From: a virus
Virus record (IMG/VR): IMGVR_UViG_3300045741_000034
Span: 1 to 27,666 of that record
Length of the DNA: 27,666 bases
Reading direction: 5' to 3' (one strand)
The translations under genes were made by a program, and so were the position numbers. Shown in pieces: positions 19 through 27,440 of the stretch. The notes below the pieces were generated by a model. The model was not told the origin of the DNA. It did not search any database and worked only from the letters and a program-made list of their open reading frames with translations. Every line of letters begins with the position of its first letter. Position 1 is the first letter of the stretch.

Positions 19-492
19 TTATCGCGAGATTAGGCTTATTCCAAGTTCTCCATATCTAATCTTAATAGTCTCAAACAATAAATCTTTATATTTAATCTTA
101 CCCTTTTCATAGTCAACATCACTGGTAGCGTAGAAGGCAGCATTGGCAGCAGCATGGGCAGCAGAGTAAGCAGCATAGGCAGCATCGGCAGCAGCATGGG
201 CAGCATTGGCAGCAGCATAGGTAGCAGCATAGGTAGCGGCACGGGCACCATAGGTAGTACGGGTACCAGCATTGACAGCAGCATTGGCTGTCTCAAGTAA
301 CTCTTGATTAGTTACGCTTTTATCGTCCTCTAACCATTTCTCTACTAATTCTATACACTTAAGAGCTTCTGCTGTAGGCTTATGCTCTTTCTTATTAACG
401 CTCTTAGCACAAGCTAGAGCATAAGAGACTACTAGCTTATGAGGGAGATTAAGCGATTTAATTAAGTTTTCTATTTCTTGTTGATAGGGCAT
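19..492 (-). CDS. Ala-rich repeat protein, resembles Imm-5-like putative immunity proteins
   Basis: 157 aa, last gene of the ibrBA accessory operon in this window. The N-terminal half (about residues 1-68) is helical and contains YALACAKSV and ELVEKWLEDDKSVTNQE. The middle (about 69-118) is a low-complexity run of Ala pairs and triplets separated by Y, N, H, D, T or S (for example AAANAAHAAADAAYAAY). The C-terminus is a normal globular-looking stretch ending in ELGISLISR. This layout, an ALACA helix, a short acidic helix, Ala repeats and then a tail, matches proteins annotated as putative immunity protein (Imm-5-like) in bacteria and phages. That match is from memory of the family and no function is proven. 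The start is supported by AAGGAG upstream (498-503). The gene lies 11 nt after the AAA+ ATPase gene. It could instead be just a phage low-complexity protein. Confidence 0.75.
   Translation of the reverse strand: MPYQQEIENLIKSLNLPHKLVVSYALACAKSVNKKEHKPTAEALKCIELVEKWLEDDKSVTNQELLETANAAVNAGTRTTYGARAATYAATYAAANAAHAAADAAYAAYSAAHAAANAAFYATSDVDYEKGKIKYKDLLFETIKIRYGELGISLISR
120..262. repeat. Imperfect GCAGC-type triplet-phased repeats encoding Ala runs
   Basis: Imperfect direct repeats built on ggcagcagcat and ggcagcat units lie inside the Ala-rich gene. Their spacing keeps the reading frame, and the third residue of each unit varies, so the array is a protein-level repeat. Such tracts can change length by slippage. 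It is not a CRISPR array because there are no constant repeats and no spacers. Confidence 0.6.
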
Positions 493-1672: not shown

Positions 1673-2908
1673 TTATTCTTCTGTCTCATCATATTTCGGT
1701 CTTTTTAATAAAGTACCTGAATCTCTCATTTCGAGATACTTGCCGTACGCAGCCGACTTAGGCTGAGTAAATGCTAATCCTTTACACCAGTAATCATTCC
1801 TAAGTAACACTTTGCATAATCGTCTCCAGCTAGGAGCTATTCGTTTAGCCTCAAGAATAGCTGGTGCTTCATCTGGGATGCCTTCGCCGTATCCTCTAGC
1901 CTTCCACCATTTAATAAATGTCTTAAACTTAACTATATAATGGTCTTGAGTATTTTTAGGCAAGGAGCTAAGTAATAGATTACAAAAAGATTTCCAAGTA
2001 TGATTATCCGGTTTTGAGATTTTAGAATATCCAGTCATATTGCCCGATTCTTGGATATATAATGCGCCAGAATTAACACCATTGACTCTATTAACGACTT
2101 TATACCAGGTGGCTGGCTCTAGTATGTGATATAACCACAAGCCTCTACGCTGGTCATCGCCATAAGGTTGGCAAATACGCATCTGGCTAGGCGAAAGTCC
2201 TGCCTTATGCATCTGTTCATAAATCTGGTTAATAGGTAAGCTAGGGTTTAAGTAATGATAGTGCCAAAGATCTGAAGTGGTCCAGTCATATATAGGATAT
2301 ACATTATAGACATTCTCAGTGACTTTAGTGGTGTAGTTCTTATCTTTAAATTTAATTTTAGTTTTTAAAGCAATAGTTCTAAATCGGTTTAAACTCTCAT
2401 CGGTACGAATACCAACTAAGCAAGCACAAGCCTTGCCTTCCGCATACCACTCGCCGAATAATGGGACAAATTCCTCAAACTCCATTCCAGACTGAAAGAA
2501 GTTGAAAAACTTTTCATCTGTAACCGCAAATTCTGGTGCAGGTCTCACCCACATATCCTTAACACTCGGGTCCCAAGCAAGCCATTTAGGTTGATAATTG
2601 GATACTGCGTTTCTTAGTGCAATAGGTAAACTGCACCAATACAACTCAATATTGTCTTTATATAACTTGATACAGTTTTCAGCATGCTGCATTGTAAGCT
2701 TGTACTGAGCTTCGAGATCTACCAGTAAGATACCTATCTTACGATTACGACGCTTAGCTTCTGCCATAACCAAATGAAGCATAACAGTGCTGTCTTTACC
2801 TGCGCTAAAACTTAAATAAATCTTCTCAAAGTTATCGAATACAAAGTTAATACGTTCTTGACTGGCATCTAAGACATTAATGTTACTATACTTTTTTAGT
2901 GTGCTCAT
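1673..2908 (-). CDS. ibrA: IbrA-like PAPS-reductase-family protein (DUF3440 type)
   Basis: 411 aa. It has the PP-loop of the adenosine nucleotide alpha-hydrolase/PAPS reductase fold, SFSAGKDS at residues 33-40, followed by an acidic LLVDLEAQ strand and LVGIRTDES (about 164-172). The long C-terminal region (WTTSDLWHYHYL, RICQPYGDDQRRGLW, WWKARGYGEGIPDEAP) matches the DUF3440/IbrA layout rather than cysH. In Escherichia coli, ibrA and ibrB were described as activators of eib genes and lie in a phage-like region. Phages often carry the pair, and the biochemical activity is unsettled. PP-loop enzymes generally bind ATP and act on sulfur or modify nucleotides. The start has GGAG five bases upstream and the gene overlaps the 125-aa gene by 23 nt, indicating tight co-translation. 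Confidence 0.88.
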   Translation of the reverse strand: MSTLKKYSNINVLDASQERINFVFDNFEKIYLSFSAGKDSTVMLHLVMAEAKRRNRKIGILLVDLEAQYKLTMQHAENCIKLYKDNIELYWCSLPIALRNAVSNYQPKWLAWDPSVKDMWVRPAPEFAVTDEKFFNFFQSGMEFEEFVPLFGEWYAEGKACACLVGIRTDESLNRFRTIALKTKIKFKDKNYTTKVTENVYNVYPIYDWTTSDLWHYHYLNPSLPINQIYEQMHKAGLSPSQMRICQPYGDDQRRGLWLYHILEPATWYKVVNRVNGVNSGALYIQESGNMTGYSKISKPDNHTWKSFCNLLLSSLPKNTQDHYIVKFKTFIKWWKARGYGEGIPDEAPAILEAKRIAPSWRRLCKVLLRNDYWCKGLAFTQPKSAAYGKYLEMRDSGTLLKRPKYDETEE

Positions 2909-3263
2909 GTTTCTCCGACCATATGTTAAGATATTTTTCAGCTAAATCATCAGCAGCTTTACGTTCTTCTAATGATAACAGGTTATACCCTCCCACGCAA
3001 ACACTACTTGGAACATTATACACCAAGGCGCATGAAGCTTGTCCTAGATATGCTATACGATTCATAGCTTCGTTGGTTAGATTATGTTCACAGCTGTAAT
3101 GCCATTCGTTTATAATGGTCTTTAAAGCAGCTTCGAACTTAGGTAGATCTTTAAATAGACTTGCGCATAACTCTAAAGTCTTATCTTTAGGATAATCCAT
3201 GCCGCCATAGAAGCCGTGGCGATAGTCCTCCCATTTATCGTAAGGATGGAATATACGAGTCAT
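2886..3263 (-). CDS. Conserved hypothetical protein between ibrB and ibrA
   Basis: 125 aa, no recognised catalytic motif. It begins MTRIFHPYDKWEDY, is rich in aromatic residues and His near its N-terminus, has a helical centre, and contains Cys residues at about 33, 59, 78 and 89. Proteins starting with a similar (M)TR-hydrophobic-HP-x-x-KWE motif are, from memory, frequent neighbours of IbrA/IbrB in phages. It overlaps ibrB by 4 nt (ATGA) and ibrA by 23 nt, and has AGGA before its ATG. The three genes are therefore translated as a unit, which suggests a dedicated third component. Function is unknown. Confidence 0.8.
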   Translation of the reverse strand: MTRIFHPYDKWEDYRHGFYGGMDYPKDKTLELCASLFKDLPKFEAALKTIINEWHYSCEHNLTNEAMNRIAYLGQASCALVYNVPSSVCVGGYNLLSLEERKAADDLAEKYLNIWSEKHEHTKKV

Positions 3264-3943
3264 ATATCCTGCTCATCTAAATTTTCGAAGTCTTCTGTTT
3301 CAATAGCGTTATCAATGTCCCAACTCTTACTAAACTCACTATTACTGAACATTTCGACTAAACCAGAGACTTGGCATAATCTTAAGACCTCGTCTGCATC
3401 CATGCCAAGGTGTTTAGCTATCCAATCTTCGCTACGATTACGTTTCTTAAGGTCCACCACAATGTCAGACATCGAGTCTACACCATGTTTACCTCTAGCT
3501 CGATTATGACGTATAGTTGACGCCATCCTGTCAGATCTGTCAGTTCTATCTTGGTTAATTACAACTAAAGGTAGATAACCGTGAACACGTTTCTGAATAG
3601 GTTTACTTTCCTTACCAACGCGATGTCTGTGGAAGCCGTCAATTACAGTGTATTTACCTTCATCAGGCCAGGAGACGATAGGTTGTGTATAGCCGTCCTC
3701 TGAGATGGATAGCTCTAAGAGTTTCATTTCTGGAGGTGCTACGGTATTTGGGTTATAATCATTCGCTTTGACTTCTGTGTTAGCTATCCACTGGACGCAG
3801 TCAACTGGTTCTGACTTAAATGGCGAGTGATTATGAAGGGCTAACCGGATAGTATTAATTGTTTCGACTTTTTGTTTAAGTGGTAGATTGTCTAGTTCAT
3901 TGAAGATATTTGTTAGGTTTTCGAGTAGGTTCTTAAGGTTCAT
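3260..3943 (-). CDS. ibrB: IbrB-like ParB/sulfiredoxin-fold protein
   Basis: 227 aa. A helical leader (1-40) is followed by a ParB/Srx domain: VKANDYNPN (58-66), ISEDGYTQPIVSW (80-92), VIDGFHRHRVG (100-110) and ASTIRHNRARGKHGVDSMSD (141-160). A helix-turn-helix-like region (IAKHLGMDADEVLRLCQVSG) follows. The DGFHRHR box corresponds to the nucleotide/phosphate-binding GxHR or GxxR motif of sulfiredoxin and ParB. IbrB is the usual partner of the DUF3440 protein. The start is supported by GGAGG four bases before ATG, and a good sigma70-type promoter lies immediately upstream. It is first gene of the operon. Its role could be DNA-binding regulation or nucleotide/DNA modification, and the sequence does not decide between them. 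Confidence 0.88.
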   Translation of the reverse strand: MNLKNLLENLTNIFNELDNLPLKQKVETINTIRLALHNHSPFKSEPVDCVQWIANTEVKANDYNPNTVAPPEMKLLELSISEDGYTQPIVSWPDEGKYTVIDGFHRHRVGKESKPIQKRVHGYLPLVVINQDRTDRSDRMASTIRHNRARGKHGVDSMSDIVVDLKKRNRSEDWIAKHLGMDADEVLRLCQVSGLVEMFSNSEFSKSWDIDNAIETEDFENLDEQDI

Positions 3944-3959
3944 TTGTCCTCCGAAGATA

Positions 3960-3989
3960 AGTATACTATTGCTTTGTTCAATAAGTCAA
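3960..3989 (-). promoter_or_regulatory. Sigma70-type promoter of the ibrB-ibrA operon
   Basis: On the minus strand, TTGACT (3984-3989) is followed by an 18-bp spacer and TATACT (3960-3965). This lies just ahead of GGAGG and the ibrB ATG at 3943. Each box matches 5 of 6 consensus bases. Together with the terminator at 4044-4070 it makes the accessory operon transcriptionally independent of the capsid genes. Confidence 0.7.
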
Positions 3990-4043
3990 CACTATCTTTG
4001 AATCTTCCTAATCCATGAATGTCAATAGTTCTTCCACAAAAAG

Positions 4044-4070
4044 AAAAAGCCCCTAGAAGTTCCTAGAGGC
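4044..4070 (-). terminator. Rho-independent terminator after the capsid-tail peptide gene
   Basis: Minus strand: GCCTCTAG, loop GAACTT, CTAGGGGC (positions 4070-4049), an 8-bp stem with one G-U pair, followed by TTTTT (4048-4044) and more T-rich sequence. It closes the small cassette that starts with the promoter at 4417-4445. The CCTAG/CTAGG core resembles the terminator after the capsid gene, so it may be a related copy. Confidence 0.75.
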
Positions 4071-4102
4071 CATTAATTACTAATGTAATTTTAAGTACTT
4101 AA

Positions 4103-4204
4103 TTACGCCGACAAACTTACAACACAATTCCAGCCAGGGGCTGAACAAATGAGGTTACCATAGTAGCCAATTCGAATTTCTAACGCATCAGCATTAGATC
4201 TCAT
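4103..4204 (-). CDS. 33-aa peptide duplicating the major capsid C-terminus
   Basis: A short ORF whose ATG overlaps the TGA of the 65-aa gene (ATGA). After M-R-S it reads NADALEIRIGYYGNLI and on to VVSLSA-stop. Residues 4-33 match the last 30 residues of the capsid protein (4509-4601) at 29 of 30 positions, the exception being Ser for Gln. By hand count 18 of the 29 identical residues use a different synonymous codon, and nucleotide identity is only about 71%. Protein sequence was therefore conserved while DNA drifted. It has no strong Shine-Dalgarno site of its own, so translational coupling to the upstream ORF is likely. It could be a functional capsid-mimic peptide, or a leftover capsid 3' end from a recombination event with a related phage. 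Confidence 0.6.
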   Translation of the reverse strand: MRSNADALEIRIGYYGNLICSAPGWNCVVSLSA

Positions 4205-4398
4205 TTCTGGATTACTTTATATCCATTAACCGGTTCTAATTGTGCTCTGCATTGGCAGCAGCATACGGTACGGTAGAATCTATCATAATAGATGAATTTA
4301 TGATTACATGCAGCAATGATTGGAGCTCGCAGTATTTTTTCTTGTTCTACCTTTTTATCTAACCATTTGTCAAATTTAGCAATCAGACTCTTAATCAT
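4201..4398 (-). CDS. Small Cys-rich, possibly zinc-binding protein (moron candidate)
   Basis: 65 aa. The N-terminal half is an amphipathic, Lys-rich helix (SLIAKFDKWLDKKVEQEK). The second half holds C31-x-H33 and a C46-C47-C48-x-C50 cluster, a plausible C-x-H...C-x2-C metal site. No family was recognised with confidence. The start has a GAGGTGAG Shine-Dalgarno region and a perfect-looking promoter directly upstream. The gene sits between two terminators immediately downstream of the capsid gene, the classic position and organisation of a moron. Its stop overlaps the start of the capsid-tail peptide. Its small size, own promoter and metal-ligand pattern would suit a small host-takeover or anti-defence factor, which is inference only. 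Confidence 0.75.
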   Translation of the reverse strand: MIKSLIAKFDKWLDKKVEQEKILRAPIIAACNHKFIYYDRFYRTVCCCQCRAQLEPVNGYKVIQK

Positions 4399-4416
4399 GT
4401 CTCACCTCGTTTGTTA

Positions 4417-4445
4417 ATTATATCAAGTTCCTTCATTGAAGTCAA
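4417..4445 (-). promoter_or_regulatory. Consensus sigma70 promoter of the 65-aa/33-aa cassette
   Basis: Minus strand: TTGACT (4440-4445), exactly 17 bp, then TATAAT (4417-4422). This is the best sigma70 promoter in the window, matching 11 of 12 consensus bases with ideal spacing. It lies between the capsid terminator and the 65-aa gene and predicts a transcript starting around 4410. Such a promoter could be active without phage factors, as expected of genes expressed from a prophage or very early. Confidence 0.8.
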
Positions 4446-4452
4446 TATAAAT

Positions 4453-4483
4453 AAAAAAGCCCTAGTTTTTAGGCTAGGGCTTT
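4453..4483 (-). terminator. Rho-independent terminator after the major capsid gene
   Basis: A 10-bp perfect stem AAAGCCCTAG/CTAGGGCTTT (4474-4483 pairs with 4456-4465) with an 8-nt loop, followed on the minus strand by TTTTTT. It lies 25 nt after the capsid stop codon and ends the head-gene transcript. The flanking A and T tracts might allow function in both directions, but no plus-strand gene points at it. Confidence 0.85.
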
Positions 4484-4508
4484 CAGATTAACTAATAAAA
4501 TTAATTAG

Positions 4509-5804
4509 TTAGGCGCTAAGCTGGACCACACAGTTCCACCCCGGGGCGCTACAAATTAAATTTCCGTAATAGCCTATGCGAATTTCTAAAGCGTCAGCAT
4601 TACCGACGCGCAGTCCTTCCAAACCTTCCATCCCGTAAGTAAGGATGTGAGGAACTTTGCCCAAGCTTCTCAACTTCCATGTATTCATGGTAAGCAGGTA
4701 GCAAGTTTGAGGAGGGCAGCTACGGTCAGCCAATACAGTAACTCGGCCATAGGCAGATTGGAAGGTGATACCTTCGAATGCTACTTCGACTTCGTCGTGG
4801 TTAACTTGAACGTATTGTACCTTGGCTCCAAGAGCGTTAACAAGGCTAGCGTATGAAGCGAAGTCCATAATAGCTAGGTCTGGTTTTCCACCTTCTCGGT
4901 TTAGGAACGCCAAAGCGTTGGTCATGCCCTCTTCAATGGTGTAGGACTGTGCGTTAAAGCGACATCCTGCCAATCGAGTGGGATCTACAGAGCGGTTAAC
5001 TCCCCAAAAGCTGTCATTCGAAGCTGGAGTGGATACAGGAATCCAAGCAGCAAGTCCAGACAAGGCAACGTAAGGGATAGTGCTAGAGACGCTAGAAGCG
5101 CCTGAAACGATATCACCATAGACACCCATTTGGTTACCAGCAGTAGTCCAGCTAGCATCAGTACCAGCGTTAAGAACCCCAGTGATAATGCCGTTGGCTC
5201 GATCTACCGACAAAACCGACAACTGAGTCGAGGAGATTGCAGAGATAGTGCCAGCAGTGTTAACGAAGTTAACAAGTGTCATACCTACTTCAAACGCCAC
5301 AATTTGTTGTGGATTCGAGAGTGTAATCGAGTAGTTAGATCCAGAAGTATTAGTTCCAGAGCCAATGCTACCGCGAGATCCAGTACCGTCGCCGAACAAC
5401 TCAAAAGCGATGTTGTTAGTGATGTTACGGAATCCGCCGTCCATTTGGAGTTTTGAAGCGTCGACGAATGCGCCAGCATTAGTCTTGGTCTGTTCCATAA
5501 GGAGGTTAGTGATAGTAACAAGTTGATAATCTTCAATAACGTAAACAAAATAAGAGACTAGCGCAGTGGCAGTCTGTTGATTTTGAGCGTTAGAGAAGGT
5601 ATGCGAACGACCTTGCGGAGTTCCATACTCAAGGGGAACAGGGATGTACTTACCGGCAAAACCGTCAGGACTCTCATTCTTGGGGACTAGAGCAAGGAAA
5701 GGGTTTTCTTTGTAAACCAGATCCTTCATATATTCTTTATCGTCCGTGTAAAGCTCTTTTAGCGCGGCGATTTGGTTCGAACTGTTTGCATGTACTGCAG
5801 CCAT
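4509..5804 (-). CDS. Major capsid protein, HK97 fold
   Basis: 431 aa from ATG 5804; an in-frame TTG six bases earlier lacks good spacing, and AAAGGA precedes this ATG by seven bases. The protein follows scaffold and portal genes and has coat-like features. The N-terminal arm is ELYTDDKEYMKDLVYKENPF, then an extended loop region VPLEYGTPQGRSHTFSNA, then QLVTITNLLMEQTKTNAGAF. A beta-rich, Gly/Ser/Thr-rich insertion spans about residues 150-245, and the later part (RNITNNIAFELFGDGTG, NREGGKPDLAIMDFASYASL, RVTVLADRSCPPQTCYLL) resembles the P-domain. No N-terminal protease-cleaved delta domain is evident, since a separate scaffold gene precedes it. The last 30 residues recur in the cassette downstream. 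It ends before a strong terminator. Confidence 0.88.
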   Translation of the reverse strand: MAAVHANSSNQIAALKELYTDDKEYMKDLVYKENPFLALVPKNESPDGFAGKYIPVPLEYGTPQGRSHTFSNAQNQQTATALVSYFVYVIEDYQLVTITNLLMEQTKTNAGAFVDASKLQMDGGFRNITNNIAFELFGDGTGSRGSIGSGTNTSGSNYSITLSNPQQIVAFEVGMTLVNFVNTAGTISAISSTQLSVLSVDRANGIITGVLNAGTDASWTTAGNQMGVYGDIVSGASSVSSTIPYVALSGLAAWIPVSTPASNDSFWGVNRSVDPTRLAGCRFNAQSYTIEEGMTNALAFLNREGGKPDLAIMDFASYASLVNALGAKVQYVQVNHDEVEVAFEGITFQSAYGRVTVLADRSCPPQTCYLLTMNTWKLRSLGKVPHILTYGMEGLEGLRVGNADALEIRIGYYGNLICSAPGWNCVVQLSA

Positions 5805-5913
5805 GTTCAAATCCTTTCTTTAATTAAGTTAATTCAATAAGTTAGACCCTATGTCTAGCTTACTGTAACATCGATACACTTACTGCGTCTTTCGACGACT
5901 CACTGGTATCTAG
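5805..5913 (-). other. Spacer between scaffold and capsid genes, no clear promoter
   Basis: About 110 nt, the longest gap inside the head operon. It contains a minor CGTC-GAAA-GACG hairpin near 5890-5905, with a GNRA-type loop, and the capsid Shine-Dalgarno site. No convincing sigma70 promoter or U-tract terminator is visible. The gap may reflect an mRNA processing or leader element that raises capsid expression. Confidence 0.35.
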
Positions 5914-7026
5914 TTAAAATTTCTCACCTTTGAACTTCAGAATTGCTCTTTCTCTAGAGGTTAACGGCCTAGAGGAGCCATGACTGTTGGTCAAAGTTTT
6001 CATTGGCGGCGGGGTCTGCGGTGCCTTTGGTTGACTCTGAGGTGCGGCTGATGAGGGTTTGGCTTTCGGAGCGACCGATTCGCCATACTTTCTCACTGAG
6101 TCTAACCGGGAGAGCTTCCATGACTCCTCCCGTAAATATTTTTCTACTTCGTCAGCGGCTTCTTCAACCGACATGACGACTTTATCTTCTTTATATGTTC
6201 TTTCAATTAAGTCTACTACGTCCTTCTGTGACCTGGTATGTCTGATAGTTTCATAGTCAGGGCTATTCTTCACCAGGTTACTGACATCAGCTGTAATCTG
6301 TTGGATTGCCGCTTGATATTGCTGTTGCTCCTGTGTCTTAAATGTCTCTTGTACGCTAGAGTTAGCCTTTTCAAGCTCGGCTAGTTTAGCCTCAAGCCTA
6401 TCAATATGGGCTAGGATTCTAGGATCTGTGTTAGGAGTGTCTAGGATCTGTTGGGTAAGCTCATCGTAGCTAACACCAGTCTCGGCTAGCTTTCGCATTG
6501 TGTCTTTTTTGAGGTCAGCTTTAGAGATGTAATCGCGCTTAAATGACTCTCGTTCGGCTTGTATCGCTTGGCGCTCAGCTTCTAGCGCTTGTTTCTCAGC
6601 AGCTAGCTGTTTTGCCTGCTCTTGAGCCTTGGCACGAAGATTGCGCTCTTGACGAGCTAACTGTGCGAATTGACGAGACAAAGATTCGTCTTTTGGCTGC
6701 TCTACTTCTGGTTTAACCGAAAGATCTACATCGGGGGTAGGAACAGCCGTAGCCTCACTAATGCCGATTTTGGCGTCAATGGGCTCTTGAGTCGTCTGAC
6801 TAGGGGCGATAGCCGACAGTTCTTCCGGGGCGATATTAGTCTGATTTTGGACTACTTTAGTCTGCGGCTGTTGATAGGCGGGGACTGCGGGACTGCTAGG
6901 AGCGGCGTCATAAGAGCTCTGCCCTTTGTTGAATGCGGCTACTGCTTTAGCTGTTCGGACATGCTCTGGCGTTCCGTTTTGGGGGATGTTACCTGGATTG
7001 TTACCTGGCGCTGGAGTGATTTTCAT
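5914..7026 (-). CDS. Scaffolding protein (probable)
   Basis: 370 aa, located directly upstream of the coat gene and downstream of the portal gene, the standard place for scaffold. The N-terminal third is Pro/Gln/Ala-rich and likely disordered (PAPGNNPGNIPQNGT, VPAYQQPQTK). The middle (about 115-240) is a long charged coiled coil (ARQERNLRAKAQEQAKQLAA and following). The C-terminus carries a Pro-rich linker and a short basic helix SRERAILKFKGEKF, similar to the coat-binding C-terminal helix of known scaffolds. It has AAAGGA before ATG and a 4-nt ATGA overlap with the preceding gene. Assignment rests on position and composition, not on a family match. Confidence 0.75.
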   Translation of the reverse strand: MKITPAPGNNPGNIPQNGTPEHVRTAKAVAAFNKGQSSYDAAPSSPAVPAYQQPQTKVVQNQTNIAPEELSAIAPSQTTQEPIDAKIGISEATAVPTPDVDLSVKPEVEQPKDESLSRQFAQLARQERNLRAKAQEQAKQLAAEKQALEAERQAIQAERESFKRDYISKADLKKDTMRKLAETGVSYDELTQQILDTPNTDPRILAHIDRLEAKLAELEKANSSVQETFKTQEQQQYQAAIQQITADVSNLVKNSPDYETIRHTRSQKDVVDLIERTYKEDKVVMSVEEAADEVEKYLREESWKLSRLDSVRKYGESVAPKAKPSSAAPQSQPKAPQTPPPMKTLTNSHGSSRPLTSRERAILKFKGEKF

Positions 7027-22056: not shown

Positions 22057-22430
22057 TTTAAACTCCTTTTATATTCTCTTCGCTCTTTATTCTCTTTTTT
22101 AGTCTTAATCTTATGGCAGTCCTTACAGACAGGCGACAGGTTCCCTATATCACACCAGATGCGGCCGATAAGCTCATCCCAAGTTAAATCGTCCATAGTC
22201 TCATTCACCTCAATAACAGGCTTCTTGTGGTCCACTTCCATCTTATATGTAGGCTCTAGTATTCCGCACTCTCCGCACCACGACCATCTTGTAACTCTAG
22301 GTCTTAAAGGATCTGAGAAACTTATGTCGTGCTTAGCTAGTGCCTCTCTTCTAAGATTTGACCTTGAGAATACTCTCCGCAGCGCCCCCTTGATGAGATT
22401 CCGCTCTTTAGCATCTTTAGGATTCTTCAT
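22053..22430 (-). CDS. HNH endonuclease
   Basis: 125 aa from ATG 22430. Paired zinc ligands CGECG and CKDCH frame the catalytic KMEVDHKKPV (Asp-His) and the Asn of GNLSPVCKDCHKIKTKKENK, an HNH with ββα-metal topology. The N-terminal helix is basic. Its location between recombination genes sbcC and the phosphoesterase suggests a junction or branch nuclease role, though a homing endonuclease is possible. It overlaps sbcC by 14 nt and the next gene by 4 nt. An upstream TTG is a weaker start. Confidence 0.82.
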   Translation of the reverse strand: MKNPKDAKERNLIKGALRRVFSRSNLRREALAKHDISFSDPLRPRVTRWSWCGECGILEPTYKMEVDHKKPVIEVNETMDDLTWDELIGRIWCDIGNLSPVCKDCHKIKTKKENKERREYKRSLK

Positions 22431-24138
22431 CAATTATACTCGCTCCATCGATTAATCTTACATTAAATCTCTTATTGAAGCAAGACTTAAGTGCCTCAGA
22501 ATGCTCCACTAAGAAGATAGAAGCATAAGTTTTCTCTAAACTTTGTAAAAGATCAAATACTTTTAGTTTCATCTGTTCGTCTAAGCCGCTAGTGACCTCA
22601 TCCATAAACACACAATTGACATCAACGCCTGAATTGTTACTCACCTGCTTCATGACAGACACTCCGAAGCACAGCTTCAACAGCTGTCGTTGACCCTTAC
22701 TCAACTGAGTAAAATTGGCTTCGTTGCCATCCTTATAGATTAAGACGTCTAACTTGTCTGAGTCCTGGACTTCGAACTTAACTCTAATCTCTGCGTCAAA
22801 GTACTTAATAAGTAAGTTATTTGTGTTAGACTCTAGAAATCCGATAGTCTGACTTATAAGGCAGCTTCTAAAGTCCTCTAACACGTCAGACAACAATGAG
22901 GCATCCGACAGCTGTAACCTGCTCTCAAGGATGTCGTCTCTAAGACTCTTAGCCTCTTTACGTAGCTGTGCGCTTTCTGTACCCAGTTCTTTTAGAGTAA
23001 CCTCATGAGGATTTTCTTCTAATTTGATTAGCTCTAGTTGCTGCAACCACATGTTTTCACTAGCAGTTTCACGTTTAATTTGTTCTTCGTAAGGATTAGC
23101 TCGGGCTTTAGTACGGATCAACTGATTATTTAGACTTACTATATCTACTCTTAGTCGATTGTTTTCTGACTCTTGTTTATCTAAGCTATGAATATCTCTT
23201 TCTATTAACAGATATTTGTGTGAGTTCTTCTGCGCCCCGCATTCTTTACACTTGGTGTCGCCTAGGTCGACTTTGCGGCTAGCTAATATTTCTCTTTGTT
23301 CTAAGAAGTACGAATCTGGTTTAAGTTTCGTTCCTAACTGTTGAATTTGATTTATAATTTTAGACGTCTCGTAGTCTTTTTCTTGTTCAAACTCAGCGCG
23401 GTTGGTATTTAAAGACTCCAACGTTTTTTGTTTACTTGATTCGAAGTTAGTCACTTTACTGTGCAGATTATCAATCTGCTTTGCCTGCTTATCATACCAC
23501 TGGTCTTTTTTCGCTGACTCTTGCTGAATTTGTTTTTCTAAATTAGACAACGAATTTTCTTTTAAAATCAATTGCTTATCGATGACCCCTAACTCTTCCT
23601 TAAGCCCTTTTGTGTATTCTGTAAGATTTGTTTTGATTTTTACAGCCAAGCTTAGGTCAACTAGCTCTTCTGTAATAGTCCGGCGATTCCTAGCCGACGC
23701 CGTAAAGAAGTTAGATGTTTGACTGAACTCATGGAAGTAGGCGGCGGACAGATAGGTATCTGCGTCCATACCTAGGAGTTCATTTATAAGCTTCTGAGTG
23801 TCGTTTAAGTCTTTGCCTCGTTTAGGGTGCTCCCAAACTCCATCTATGACATAGTATAAATCGTTAGGATTTCTAGTTCTTGCTATCCATAGCGAATAAC
23901 TCCCCATATCTAATATGACGTGCCCATAAGTGGTCTCGGACACTCCCCAGCTGACTATGTCGTTAGCCGATCCATTCTTAGCGGTGATCCCGTACAGCAC
24001 CCACGGGACGATGTCACATAACGTGGACTTACCCGAGCCCGTTGGTCCTGAGATAAGCGTTAGGCCTAAGTCGTCAAACTCGAAGCTTAAATTCTTATAG
24101 CTACCAAAGTTTTGTACTTCAACTGTCATGATTTTCAT
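22417..24138 (-). CDS. SbcC/Rad50-like recombination ATPase (gp46 type)
   Basis: 573 aa, close to T4 gp46 and shorter than bacterial SbcC. The N-terminal ABC half has Walker A GPTGSGKST (31-39) and a Q-loop-like region near 140. Coiled coils (about 170-290 and 310-420) flank a zinc hook C297-K-E-C300. The C-terminal half has signature LSKGQRQ (479-485) and Walker B CVFMDEVTSGLD (509-520). It works with the SbcD-like nuclease to resect DNA ends for recombination-dependent replication. ATGA overlap with the preceding gene and TAAGG upstream support the start. Confidence 0.93.
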   Translation of the reverse strand: MKIMTVEVQNFGSYKNLSFEFDDLGLTLISGPTGSGKSTLCDIVPWVLYGITAKNGSANDIVSWGVSETTYGHVILDMGSYSLWIARTRNPNDLYYVIDGVWEHPKRGKDLNDTQKLINELLGMDADTYLSAAYFHEFSQTSNFFTASARNRRTITEELVDLSLAVKIKTNLTEYTKGLKEELGVIDKQLILKENSLSNLEKQIQQESAKKDQWYDKQAKQIDNLHSKVTNFESSKQKTLESLNTNRAEFEQEKDYETSKIINQIQQLGTKLKPDSYFLEQREILASRKVDLGDTKCKECGAQKNSHKYLLIERDIHSLDKQESENNRLRVDIVSLNNQLIRTKARANPYEEQIKRETASENMWLQQLELIKLEENPHEVTLKELGTESAQLRKEAKSLRDDILESRLQLSDASLLSDVLEDFRSCLISQTIGFLESNTNNLLIKYFDAEIRVKFEVQDSDKLDVLIYKDGNEANFTQLSKGQRQLLKLCFGVSVMKQVSNNSGVDVNCVFMDEVTSGLDEQMKLKVFDLLQSLEKTYASIFLVEHSEALKSCFNKRFNVRLIDGASIIDEES

Positions 24139-24386
24139 TTATGCCTTAATGTCGGACAATCAGACCAATGAAAATCTTTACAATCGCACAATAAGTCAAA
24201 TAACTTGTCTTTATTGACTTTATGTGCCGTTACATACGCGATTAGCTCTACGCCTCGCGCGTTTAGTCCGGCTCGATAAACAATTATATCTCCAATATTG
24301 CTATGTGTTGATATAACCTGCTCATCTTGTGGAGGACTAGATAAACTGTATAAAGAGCCGCCAGCGCCACCGAATATGTCTCCCAT
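24135..24386 (-). CDS. Small Cys/His-containing protein between sbcD and sbcC
   Basis: 83 aa starting at ATG 24386 with TTGGAGG four bases before; the ATG overlaps the sbcD stop (TGATG). It begins MGDIFGGAGGSLYSLSS (flexible), has a beta-rich core IGDIIVYRAGLNARGVELIA, and ends with CDCKDFHWSDC, a cluster of Cys and His that could bind zinc. No family recognised. Its strict placement between the two subunits of one complex, with overlaps on both sides, suggests a role with SbcCD. Confidence 0.65.
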   Translation of the reverse strand: MGDIFGGAGGSLYSLSSPPQDEQVISTHSNIGDIIVYRAGLNARGVELIAYVTAHKVNKDKLFDLLCDCKDFHWSDCPTLRHK

Positions 24387-25387
24387 CAATCCTCCAACTG
24401 TTTCCACAAGTCTTTGAGCCTGCTTTTTTGTTCGTCGTCTGTATTTGTCAGTGAGTCTATAAGAGTGTCTAACACCTCGAATTGAGGTTTGTTTGGGTCT
24501 TGTTTAGACGTGGTGATGTCAGTAGATATGAGGTCGAGTTTGAAGTCCCCCTCTATCTTCATACGATTAGCAATATCCTTCTTAGTAATGTTTAGATATT
24601 GTTTGTCTCCTGAGACTTTCACCCACAGCAAGTCGCCCCGTTTGTAGTCATGCTGCCATAAGTCTGGATGATCTATGTCTCCGATTCCGATATCAACCAC
24701 GACGTGTTTTCTTAAGTTAGTGGGTACGAATTCAAGACTACCGTCATCATATAGGATCTGATAGCCTTTAGGAGGGTCATCAGCTTCCGCATAGTTCAAA
24801 GTGAACGGGTTACCGACATAATCGAACTTACCGCCGTCCGGTAGGTCGAATGATTGGCGAGTATGGTAGTGTCCAGAGATGACTCTGAAGCCTGCTAGAT
24901 CTTCTTTATTGAGCGCGGATTTGTCTTGGTAGTAGTGACCTGCATTAGAGCTATTAATGCCTTGGTGCATGATTAGAGTAGATTTAGGAGGTAGGGTTTT
25001 AAGATATTGTCGTAGTTCGTTAGCATCATGATGGTAAGGTATTAGATGACATTCTAGGCGCTTACTATAGAAGGGCTCATCTATAATGATACAATTAGGC
25101 TTAAGAAAGGAAAGGCTATGTTCTTTTGATTTCTCATTAATAGAGTCGTGATTACCCCTCAGTACCACTGGGGAGGTTAGACTATATACTTCTAATGTCT
25201 TCTTCATTGCATTCATACATTCCCCTCGAATGTTAGCCTTGGTGTCGTGAAGATCCCCGCAAATTATCAAAGGAACTTCTAATCTATTCGCATGTTTAAA
25301 CGCCTTATTGACAGCTTTGTCCGCTATTTCTAGAGTTTGTAAGTTATAGTGAACATCACTAATGAGAACTGCTTTAGGCTTACTCAT
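24386..25387 (-). CDS. SbcD/Mre11-like nuclease (gp47 type)
   Basis: 333 aa from ATG 25387 (MSKPKAVLISDVHYNLQ); an in-frame ATG 12 codons upstream would lie deep in the HNH gene. Phosphoesterase motifs are ISDVHYN (D11, H13), ICGDLHDTK, LRGNHDS, MHQGIN and SGHYHTRQ, ordered as in SbcD/Mre11. The C-terminal part is the capping domain. Partner of the SbcC-like ATPase, forming a double-strand end-processing nuclease. The ribosome site is weak, so translation may depend on coupling. Confidence 0.93.
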   Translation of the reverse strand: MSKPKAVLISDVHYNLQTLEIADKAVNKAFKHANRLEVPLIICGDLHDTKANIRGECMNAMKKTLEVYSLTSPVVLRGNHDSINEKSKEHSLSFLKPNCIIIDEPFYSKRLECHLIPYHHDANELRQYLKTLPPKSTLIMHQGINSSNAGHYYQDKSALNKEDLAGFRVISGHYHTRQSFDLPDGGKFDYVGNPFTLNYAEADDPPKGYQILYDDGSLEFVPTNLRKHVVVDIGIGDIDHPDLWQHDYKRGDLLWVKVSGDKQYLNITKKDIANRMKIEGDFKLDLISTDITTSKQDPNKPQFEVLDTLIDSLTNTDDEQKSRLKDLWKQLED

Positions 25388-25964
25388 GTTCAAGTACCCA
25401 ACTGTTATTATCGTAAGTACCATCGAATGAATTTGATTTCTTACTATTAAGACTCTGTGTCAAGTACTGAAGGTTCCAGCTCACATGTAATCCACATACG
25501 TCTTTATTCTTAACTGGTATTATATGGTCTACGGTTAAGTTCTCAGGACAGTTTTCATAAAAAACTAGAGTCTCAAGCGCATGATATTTATTAAATATAT
25601 TTCTTAATGTTAATCTTCTCCCACTCTGGTACATTCTCTGATAGTCTCTGTATTTTTTAGGATTCAAGTGTTTAGCTTTGTTTGCCCTGGCAACCGCCCT
25701 AACTGAATATAGTGGGTTCTCCTTACGTTTTTTAAGCGCCTTTCCAGAGTTTACGTATTTAGCTTGGGCATTTTTAACCTTATCTGGATTGTTTGCTGAC
25801 CAAGCTGTTTGATTGTTATTTATCTGTTCTCTGTTATTGATTCTATATTCTTCATAATAGCAGGCCTTACATATTATACGGATGCCTTTTTTAATTCCCC
25901 TCCATAAACTGTTGGGTAGAATCGGGTATGACTTAGTGCAAGCTGGACATTCCCTAGTTGTCAT
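25380..25964 (-). CDS. Free-standing HNH endonuclease, homing-type candidate
   Basis: 194 aa. An N-terminal zinc-ribbon (ECPACTKSY ... CKACYYEE, two CxxC) is followed by a Lys/Asn-rich linker and a C-terminal HNH core LTVDHIIPVKNKDVCGLHVS then WNLQYLTQSLNSKKSNSF. This domain order is typical of phage stand-alone HNH nucleases that behave as homing elements. It is inserted between recA-like and sbcD-like genes with 4-nt and 8-nt overlaps and looks more AT-rich than its neighbours by eye. The nuclease would cut alleles lacking it. Confidence 0.85.
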   Translation of the reverse strand: MTTRECPACTKSYPILPNSLWRGIKKGIRIICKACYYEEYRINNREQINNNQTAWSANNPDKVKNAQAKYVNSGKALKKRKENPLYSVRAVARANKAKHLNPKKYRDYQRMYQSGRRLTLRNIFNKYHALETLVFYENCPENLTVDHIIPVKNKDVCGLHVSWNLQYLTQSLNSKKSNSFDGTYDNNSWVLEHE

Positions 25965-26839
25965 TCAGATTCTTCTCCGGAGCCCACTAATGCTATTCCT
26001 TCTTTTGTTATACTTAGCAATATATTTTTAGGTCCAGGATTGGTTTTATCAATATGATTCTTGAATAAAGTCCAGGAGACTATAGCTCCAACTCTTACTT
26101 TTTCTTTATTAACTGTTCTTTCAACCCAACTTTTTCTAGTAGTTTGATATGTCAAGCATGAGAAGAAATTTACAGCTTTACCGCCAGCATTAGTTTTGCC
26201 CGGGCTGCCGATATTTGAGTACGTGTAATTGATCATAAGAACAGCTACATCGCCTTCGTCTCGTTTGGCTATCAGCTTGTTGATACCTAGTCTATTGATC
26301 TGGCCCTTTCCACCTGGTTTCTGGTTACTAGTGGTTAGATCCATCTCAGAGTCGCGCTTAGAGACTACGTTACCTATAGAGTCGAACACCACGAGTAACT
26401 TCTCTTTAGGATAGTTTTTAAAGAATTCGTCCCACAGCTTAAACATTAGCTCAAACGCCTCTTCTGCGATTGAAGATTGCACCAGCATAACTTGGTCAGG
26501 ATCGACCCCCCAGTTTCTTAGGTCTTGCTCAGTGGTCTTGTTCTCAGTTTCAACGTATAGAACCACCACGCCTTGGGCCTGTGCGGCCTTCATCGCCTCT
26601 ATAGCGCACGAGGTTTTGCCTGAATCGGAGTCCCCTGCTATCATGACTAGCTTCCCAAAAGGAATGCCCTTGGTGTTAGTTCCTTTTTGCCACCATTGGG
26701 GCATTATTACGAAGTCCGAGTCTGCTGTTCCTCTGAGTTTAGACGCGAAACCAATAGCATTAGCTTTATTAGTATCTTTCGCGTACAGTTTTTGTACATC
26801 TTTCACTACTTTGGAGATATCGAATTTAGCCTTACTCAT
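25961..26839 (-). CDS. RecA/UvsX-like recombinase
   Basis: 292 aa from ATG 26839 (MSKAKFDISKV), chosen to reduce overlap with the preceding gene to 8 nt; its ribosome site is poor. Walker A is GDSDSGKTS (69-77), followed by LYVETENK with the catalytic-type Glu, Walker B LLVVFDSIG (D153), and INYTYSNIG then NAGGKAVNFFSCLTYQTTRK as the loop 2 region. Size and motif order fit phage RecA-like proteins rather than bacterial RecA. It drives strand exchange and, with SbcCD, feeds recombination-dependent replication. Confidence 0.85.
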   Translation of the reverse strand: MSKAKFDISKVVKDVQKLYAKDTNKANAIGFASKLRGTADSDFVIMPQWWQKGTNTKGIPFGKLVMIAGDSDSGKTSCAIEAMKAAQAQGVVVLYVETENKTTEQDLRNWGVDPDQVMLVQSSIAEEAFELMFKLWDEFFKNYPKEKLLVVFDSIGNVVSKRDSEMDLTTSNQKPGGKGQINRLGINKLIAKRDEGDVAVLMINYTYSNIGSPGKTNAGGKAVNFFSCLTYQTTRKSWVERTVNKEKVRVGAIVSWTLFKNHIDKTNPGPKNILLSITKEGIALVGSGEESE

Positions 26840-27440
26840 CGAACACCATGTCTGCTGCTTTCTCATATAGGTCTACAAAAGTCCATGCGCCTATATCTGT
26901 TTCAGGTTTGTAGTACATATAGACCATAGCAAGAAATTTCTTTTTTGTCAATATCTTTGGTAGGTGTCCCGTGAACAACACCATCATGAACCAATTGAGG
27001 CAGTCTCCAGATGGGAACATCAATAGTTTAATCTCTTGAAGAACAGAGAACAGTGGGAACAGCGCTCTTGGATATAAAGCAGCGAGCACCATAGGGTGTA
27101 TAGGCATATACGTCTGATCAAACTGCCAGCGCATATCGCTTACCCTGAAGTCGTCGATAACAGATAATATAAATCTTGGAGTCCATTGATCAGGACCAAA
27201 TCCCCAAGATGCTTTCGCCCGAGGATGTCTAATATATCCAAACAAACCTTCTGTATTTTTAAAATAATCCTCTACTCCAGCTGTGCTTACCTTACCGCTG
27301 ATCTCCTCTGTCAATGTTTTAGACTTGGTGTACAGCTTAAGTATCCAATACCTACCAGTCTCGGCGCAGGCGTCTCCTACCGAGGCCTCAACGGTCGTGT
27401 CATGCTCCATGCATAGTAATCCGTACTCGTCAAACTTCAT
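26832..27440 (-). CDS. Hypothetical protein upstream of recA-like gene
   Basis: 202 aa, no recognised motif. It has an N-terminal mixed region, aromatic-rich central stretches (RHPRAKASWGFGPDQWTPRF, DMRWQFDQTYMPIHPM) and hydrophobic helical parts (WFMMVLFTGHLPK) that look amphipathic rather than membrane-spanning. It starts in an ATGA overlap and overlaps recA by 8 nt, so it belongs to the replication operon. Unassigned. Confidence 0.7.
   Translation of the reverse strand: MKFDEYGLLCMEHDTTVEASVGDACAETGRYWILKLYTKSKTLTEEISGKVSTAGVEDYFKNTEGLFGYIRHPRAKASWGFGPDQWTPRFILSVIDDFRVSDMRWQFDQTYMPIHPMVLAALYPRALFPLFSVLQEIKLLMFPSGDCLNWFMMVLFTGHLPKILTKKKFLAMVYMYYKPETDIGAWTFVDLYEKAADMVFDE

Follow-up and report, generated by a model that had tools for sequence, protein, structure and literature searches.

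The major capsid protein (MCP) gene of this phage has two 3' ends. In the window, which is the whole stretch of 27,666 nucleotides analyzed from one IMG/VR virus record (IMGVR_UViG_3300045741_000034), the last 30 codons of the gene and its stop were present both in place, as tail A, and a second time downstream, as tail B. We consider that the locus is the scar of a 3'-end replacement resulting from recombination between two related phages (probability about 0.74). The replacement of the capsid 3' end itself is well supported; the proposed break and enzyme, as well as the donor and the direction, are inferred.

Two Capsid 3' Ends and Their Surroundings

The MCP gene (4509..5810, minus strand) is uninterrupted and encodes 433 aa, with a probable ATG at 5804. 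It was identified based on its match to the PHROG major head protein (E=1.7e-13) and its position, shared with relatives, after genes for a portal and a putative scaffold protein; the match to the Pfam family SU10_MCP was just under the cut-off (E=1.3e-4). SU10 and other capsids gave weak matches only to the protein in structural comparison, and its AlphaFold model, with a mean pLDDT of 55, was too weak for placing the tail.

The capsid protein ends in ...LRVGNADALEIRIGYYGNLICSAPGWNCVVQLSA, and its codons 404–433 with the stop constitute tail A (4509..4601, minus), fused to the capsid body. The same codons occur again as tail B, the displaced second copy (4103..4195, minus), within a 33-aa ORF (4103..4204, minus, ATG start) whose product is MRSNADALEIRIGYYGNLICSAPGWNCVVSLSA. 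The tails are identical at 29 of 30 residues, the sole replacement between A and B being Q430S (Gln to Ser). Counting the stop, the two copies have the same codon at 12 of 31 positions, a synonymous one at 18 and a non-synonymous one at a single position. Nucleotide identity is 66/93, with the copies offset by 406 bp, and the match is well beyond chance (tblastn E about 5e-18). These values confirm to the base an earlier note on this DNA, which had reported that the capsid C-terminus is encoded twice. The homology ends abruptly at codon 404, as the DNA upstream gave a score of 17 compared to a shuffle 95% level of 21, and after the stops similarity was inside the shuffle range (score 19 versus 20).

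On the minus strand, the capsid body and tail A are followed by the stop, a terminator-like hairpin (4455..4484), a promoter-like site (4417..4445) and a 65-aa ORF (4201..4398). The stop of that ORF overlaps the start of the 33-aa ORF as ATGA, after which come the residues MRS, tail B, its stop, another terminator-like hairpin (4048..4071), a further promoter-like site (3960..3989) and a ParB-like gene (3260..3943; PHROG E=3.4e-72, and synteny). That is, a terminator-like hairpin and then a sigma-70-like promoter lie 3' of each tail. Both promoters are consensus matches only; the first (TTGACT-17-TATAAT, 11/12, with a TG before the second hexamer) belongs to a type found no more often than in shuffled sequences. 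The hairpins are of a type found at most 130 nt 3' of the MCP gene in 87/104 relatives, versus 0/104 shuffled sequences, and tail A and tail B each carry a complete MCP-type 3' end.

The 65-aa ORF appears to be a passenger gene. Its product is zinc-ribbon-like (CxH...CCCxxC) and had no Pfam match, and its PHROG matches were weak and to families of unknown function only (phrog_4865, E=0.0012). Searches with this protein for a lead to the donor returned no IMG/VR relatives and one sub-significant phage match (E=0.9), and neither an endonuclease gene nor a remnant of one was recognised in the insert. The insert was also considered as a degenerate intron and this was rejected, as there was no Rfam intron match at 2800–7000 and an intron-like core was not seen. 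At one end of the window (19–492), we noted an alanine-rich low-complexity protein with a DUF6931 match; in relatives L013 and L042, similar proteins occur as adjacent paralogues.

Divergence of the Two Tails

Relatives were gathered with an IMG/VR protein scan, which yielded 74 loci, and with a tail pattern, which yielded 113 stretches; together these supplied >100 distinct capsid-gene relatives. Among the 54 distinct tails of the protein-scan set, 225 pairs of relatives differed by at most one residue. Those pairs shared on average 70.0/93 nt (range 59–83) and had a mean of 18.1 synonymous codon differences (range 8–25), compared to 66/93 nt and 18 for tails A and B. Residue 430 is Ser in the capsid tails of 9 of the 54, and the Q-to-S change is thus a common capsid variant.

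The 27 nucleotide differences between tails A and B produce a single amino acid change. When 26 nt were changed at random to simulate neutral drift (2000 trials), a median of about 16 residues changed, with a minimum of 11. This difference, one residue versus at least 11, indicates divergence under capsid constraint, and both tails likely diverged as parts of real capsid proteins. Two histories fit such a pattern: either the tails diverged in different phages that later recombined, or a stand-alone peptide was under strong selection. The occurrence of the second copy in a single phage among 107 distinct 3' flanks favors the first.

Whether the tails group with particular capsid cores, a check proposed in the earlier note, was analyzed with similarity profiles over 100 relatives. 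The body-tail correlation was 0.61 for tail A and 0.66 for tail B, compared to a mean of 0.62 for a capsid's own tail and a median of 0.43 for other tails, with synonymous sites being saturated. A clear grouping with the capsid body was seen for neither tail.

The Capsid-ParB Slot in Relatives

A second tail was not observed within 3 kb in any of the 106 other distinct MCP 3' flanks (107 including the window), the highest score being 36 compared to 158 in the window. In syntenic relatives, the slot between the capsid gene and ParB is empty or occupied by endonuclease-like genes. The capsid gene is followed directly by ParB in L005, L006, L013 and L017/L060, and an HNH/EndoVII-like gene lies between them in L003/L095 and L030. 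Judged by motif, in 92 flanks the ORF directly 3' of the MCP gene resembled GIY-YIG proteins in 13 cases and zinc-finger/HNH/EndoVII proteins in 17. Pfam typing of ten such ORFs gave five GIY-YIG, two Endonuclease VII and three without an endonuclease match. With a GIY-YIG-like or HNH/EndoVII-like gene adjoining the capsid gene 3' end in about a third of relatives (e.g., L065:570-1148, L123:476-1075, L095:6896-7486, L128:3796-4254), the site represents a homing hotspot.

Displaced ends of other genes were sought among about 1,900 ORFs of 183 stretches, and no comparable case was found. A match in L012 (8180–8291 and 8497–8611) was rejected as a displaced gene end, as it involves two different adjacent ORFs sharing a C-terminal zinc-finger-like segment. 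That segment has about 80% amino acid identity and looks like a shared module. Close capsid relatives were not found among deposited phages, and no match was found in host genomes.

Introns and Endonucleases in the Capsid Genes of Relatives

The capsid gene of this clade is, judging from the sequences of the relatives, a hotspot for group I introns and homing endonucleases. Inserts were present in about 36/122 distinct capsid gene entries of relatives. Those of group I type, a label based on splice-site and guide pairing and core-like motifs in inserts that Rfam 15 missed, lie at codons 407/408 (L055, L067, L130), about 412 (L063, L072) and 424 (L063). At 407/408 in L055 and L067, there is a U at the 5' splice site, a G at the intron end and guide-exon pairing via a U-G pair. 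Tail B starts 3–4 codons ahead of this site; as intron sites are numerous, the closeness of the junction to an intron site is only suggestive.

The inserts unmatched by Rfam 15 that have group I-type splice sites and core-like motifs include L055:6060-6275, L067:6637-6842, L063:6893-7107, L072 near 6720-6940 and L042:5218-5826, and the large ones among them carry HNH-like ORFs. We also noted inserts of only 32–59 nt on the capsid strand (L026:121-157, L042:5070-5107, L044 near 4942, L055:3375-3421, L058 near 3930, L059 near 4961, L061 near 3562, L063 near 6818-6865, L068 near 4326, L069 near 5112 and L106 near 10284). Eleven of 13 tested combined a U at the 5' and a G at the 3' splice site with a guide sequence that pairs over 7–9 bp with the 5' exon, placing U-G at the splice site, and over 4–7 bp with the 3' exon, a combination matched by 0/200 interior shuffles for each. 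These mini-inserts are too short for a ribozyme core. Each precedes a larger insert in its own capsid gene, and in other phages full-size inserts occupy most of the sites. Possibly, they represent core-less group I mini-introns that are spliced by the core of a neighbor. Introns within phage capsid genes are already known, as are free-standing HNH genes in the vicinity of such genes (PMC3706429).

Probable Replacement of the Capsid 3' End and Alternative Explanations

We hypothesize that the capsid body became joined to the capsid 3' end of another lineage, comprising its tail, stop and terminator, together with that lineage's promoter and 65-aa gene. The pre-existing 3' end, severed from the body at codon 404, would remain beside ParB as tail B, still followed by its terminator. 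Retention of an MCP-type terminator by tail B is as expected for a displaced gene end. The trigger may have been a double-strand break made by a homing endonuclease in the recipient's capsid tail. The donor would then have been the template from which the body end gained a new tail, the terminator and the 65-aa gene, with the remaining broken end, from codon 404, attached behind them. Repair was potentially carried out by the phage's own machinery of the UvsX/SbcCD type. The earlier note had seen no recombinase gene; this holds for integrases, none being present among the proteins scanned in this 27.7-kb fragment, but the window does encode a UvsX-like recombinase (25961..26866, minus; PHROG E=2.5e-29) that may belong to such repair machinery, as well as SbcC- and SbcD-like homologues (22417..25423, minus, as 22417–24138 and 24386–25423; PHROGs E=1.2e-61 and 2.1e-35).

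As to direction, we lean towards an imported tail A and a native tail B, the latter being favored by its position beside ParB, with the reverse having a substantial chance. The 33-aa ORF is most likely a relic rather than the gene of a functional peptide, its ATG potentially being the start of a gene that formerly followed the 65-aa gene and that happened to be joined in frame to tail B. For a scar, it is slightly surprising to find an in-frame ATG three codons ahead of tail B that overlaps the preceding stop; the chance of an in-frame ATG within 10 codons is about 0.11. Overall, the evidence from >100 relatives supports the e14/icd-like option of the earlier note, that a divergent relative supplied the 3' end and the displaced end remained behind, and this option fits all of the evidence.

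In an unlikely alternative, the 33-aa ORF is a functional mimic of the capsid tail that modulates assembly, interferes with the capsid of a co-infecting relative or serves as a decoy for a capsid-sensing defence. The ORF is intact, retains 29/30 residues, overlaps the 65-aa gene in a manner that would permit translational coupling and has a promoter-like site upstream, and capsid-sensing defences are known (PMC9712102). A version in which the displaced tail, coupled to the 65-aa gene under its own promoter, interferes with the assembly of co-infecting relatives or occupies such a defence is rather improbable. The copy is private to the window phage among the 107 capsid 3' flanks, the divergence with a single Q-to-S change is what tails show as parts of capsids, the MCP-type terminator is one that a displaced gene end would have, and a clear Shine-Dalgarno sequence was not seen by eye. 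The selected peptide or capsid mimic offered as another option in the earlier note thus gained no positive support.

It is very unlikely that an assembler joined two co-occurring related phages and that the junction at 4196–4205 is not real. The locus is known from a single metagenomic virus record, and the junction word was absent from all other IMG/VR contigs. Against this, the longest exact word common to both regions is 11 nt, which is too short for ordinary k-mer joining, and gene order on both sides is normal for the clade. An old tandem duplication within the phage lineage followed by drift would account for copies that are close and in the same orientation, but is scarcely credible given 27 nt changes with one residue changed where neutral drift alters at least 11, no homology upstream (17 versus 21), none that is clear after the stop (19 versus 20) and no copy in any relative.

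Comparison with Known Systems

The prophage e14 integrates site-specifically into icd of E. coli by means of an integrase and provides the gene with a new 3' end whose differences are mostly synonymous. The window resembles that system in that the replacement 3' end is mainly synonymous and the displaced end lies beside the element; it differs in that about 400 bp only are involved and an integrase was not found.

The inserted unit also resembles the morons of lambdoid phages, as defined in PMC1524935. It is a short AT-rich unit (GC 0.34 versus 0.42) in which an ORF, a promoter-like site and a terminator lie between conserved genes, and it has its own promoter (consensus only) and terminator, a deviating composition and no counterpart in syntenic relatives. 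Unlike morons, the unit in the window lies between two versions of the neighboring gene's 3' end, and this arrangement shows how a moron-like unit may have entered. If our interpretation is right, the locus is a freeze-frame of small passenger genes entering a phage structural gene block via exchange of a neighbor's 3' end, an exchange that leaves the capsid protein almost unchanged.

Free-standing homing endonucleases mark boundaries of genetic exchange in phages, as in the co-conversion associated with T4 SegE and SegG (PMC10448857). Endonuclease-like genes adjoin the capsid gene in many relatives of the window phage, where exchange of flanking markers is to be expected. In contrast, no endonuclease was recognised in the slot of the window, where a second copy of a gene end persists, unlike in a clean co-conversion.

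The most detailed parallel is with fungal mitochondrial DNA. Beaudet et al. (2013) described hybrids of atp6, atp9, cox2 and nad3 in Glomus sp., and referred to atp6 of Allomyces macrogynus (PMC3630166). Such hybrids consist of a foreign C-terminus, an endonuclease ORF and the displaced native C-terminus, with the protein conserved; the Glomus foreign ends have about 64–81% nucleotide identity with a close relative's native end, and the atp6 ends 63.5% with each other (PMC3630166). The window likewise has an in-frame, putatively foreign, mostly synonymous C-terminal end, an inserted ORF next to it and a displaced C-terminus downstream, at 71% nucleotide identity. The fungal inserts encode LAGLIDADG or GIY-YIG endonucleases, whereas the 65-aa zinc-ribbon-like ORF has no endonuclease signature, and because of this we do not file the locus as a member of the fungal type. 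Further differences are that the window has a phage capsid gene with terminators at both ends, and that in fungi the native end was identified by close relatives. If the replacement occurred as we propose, the locus represents a phage parallel to the fungal mitochondrial gene hybrids, in a capsid gene repeatedly invaded by introns and homing endonucleases.
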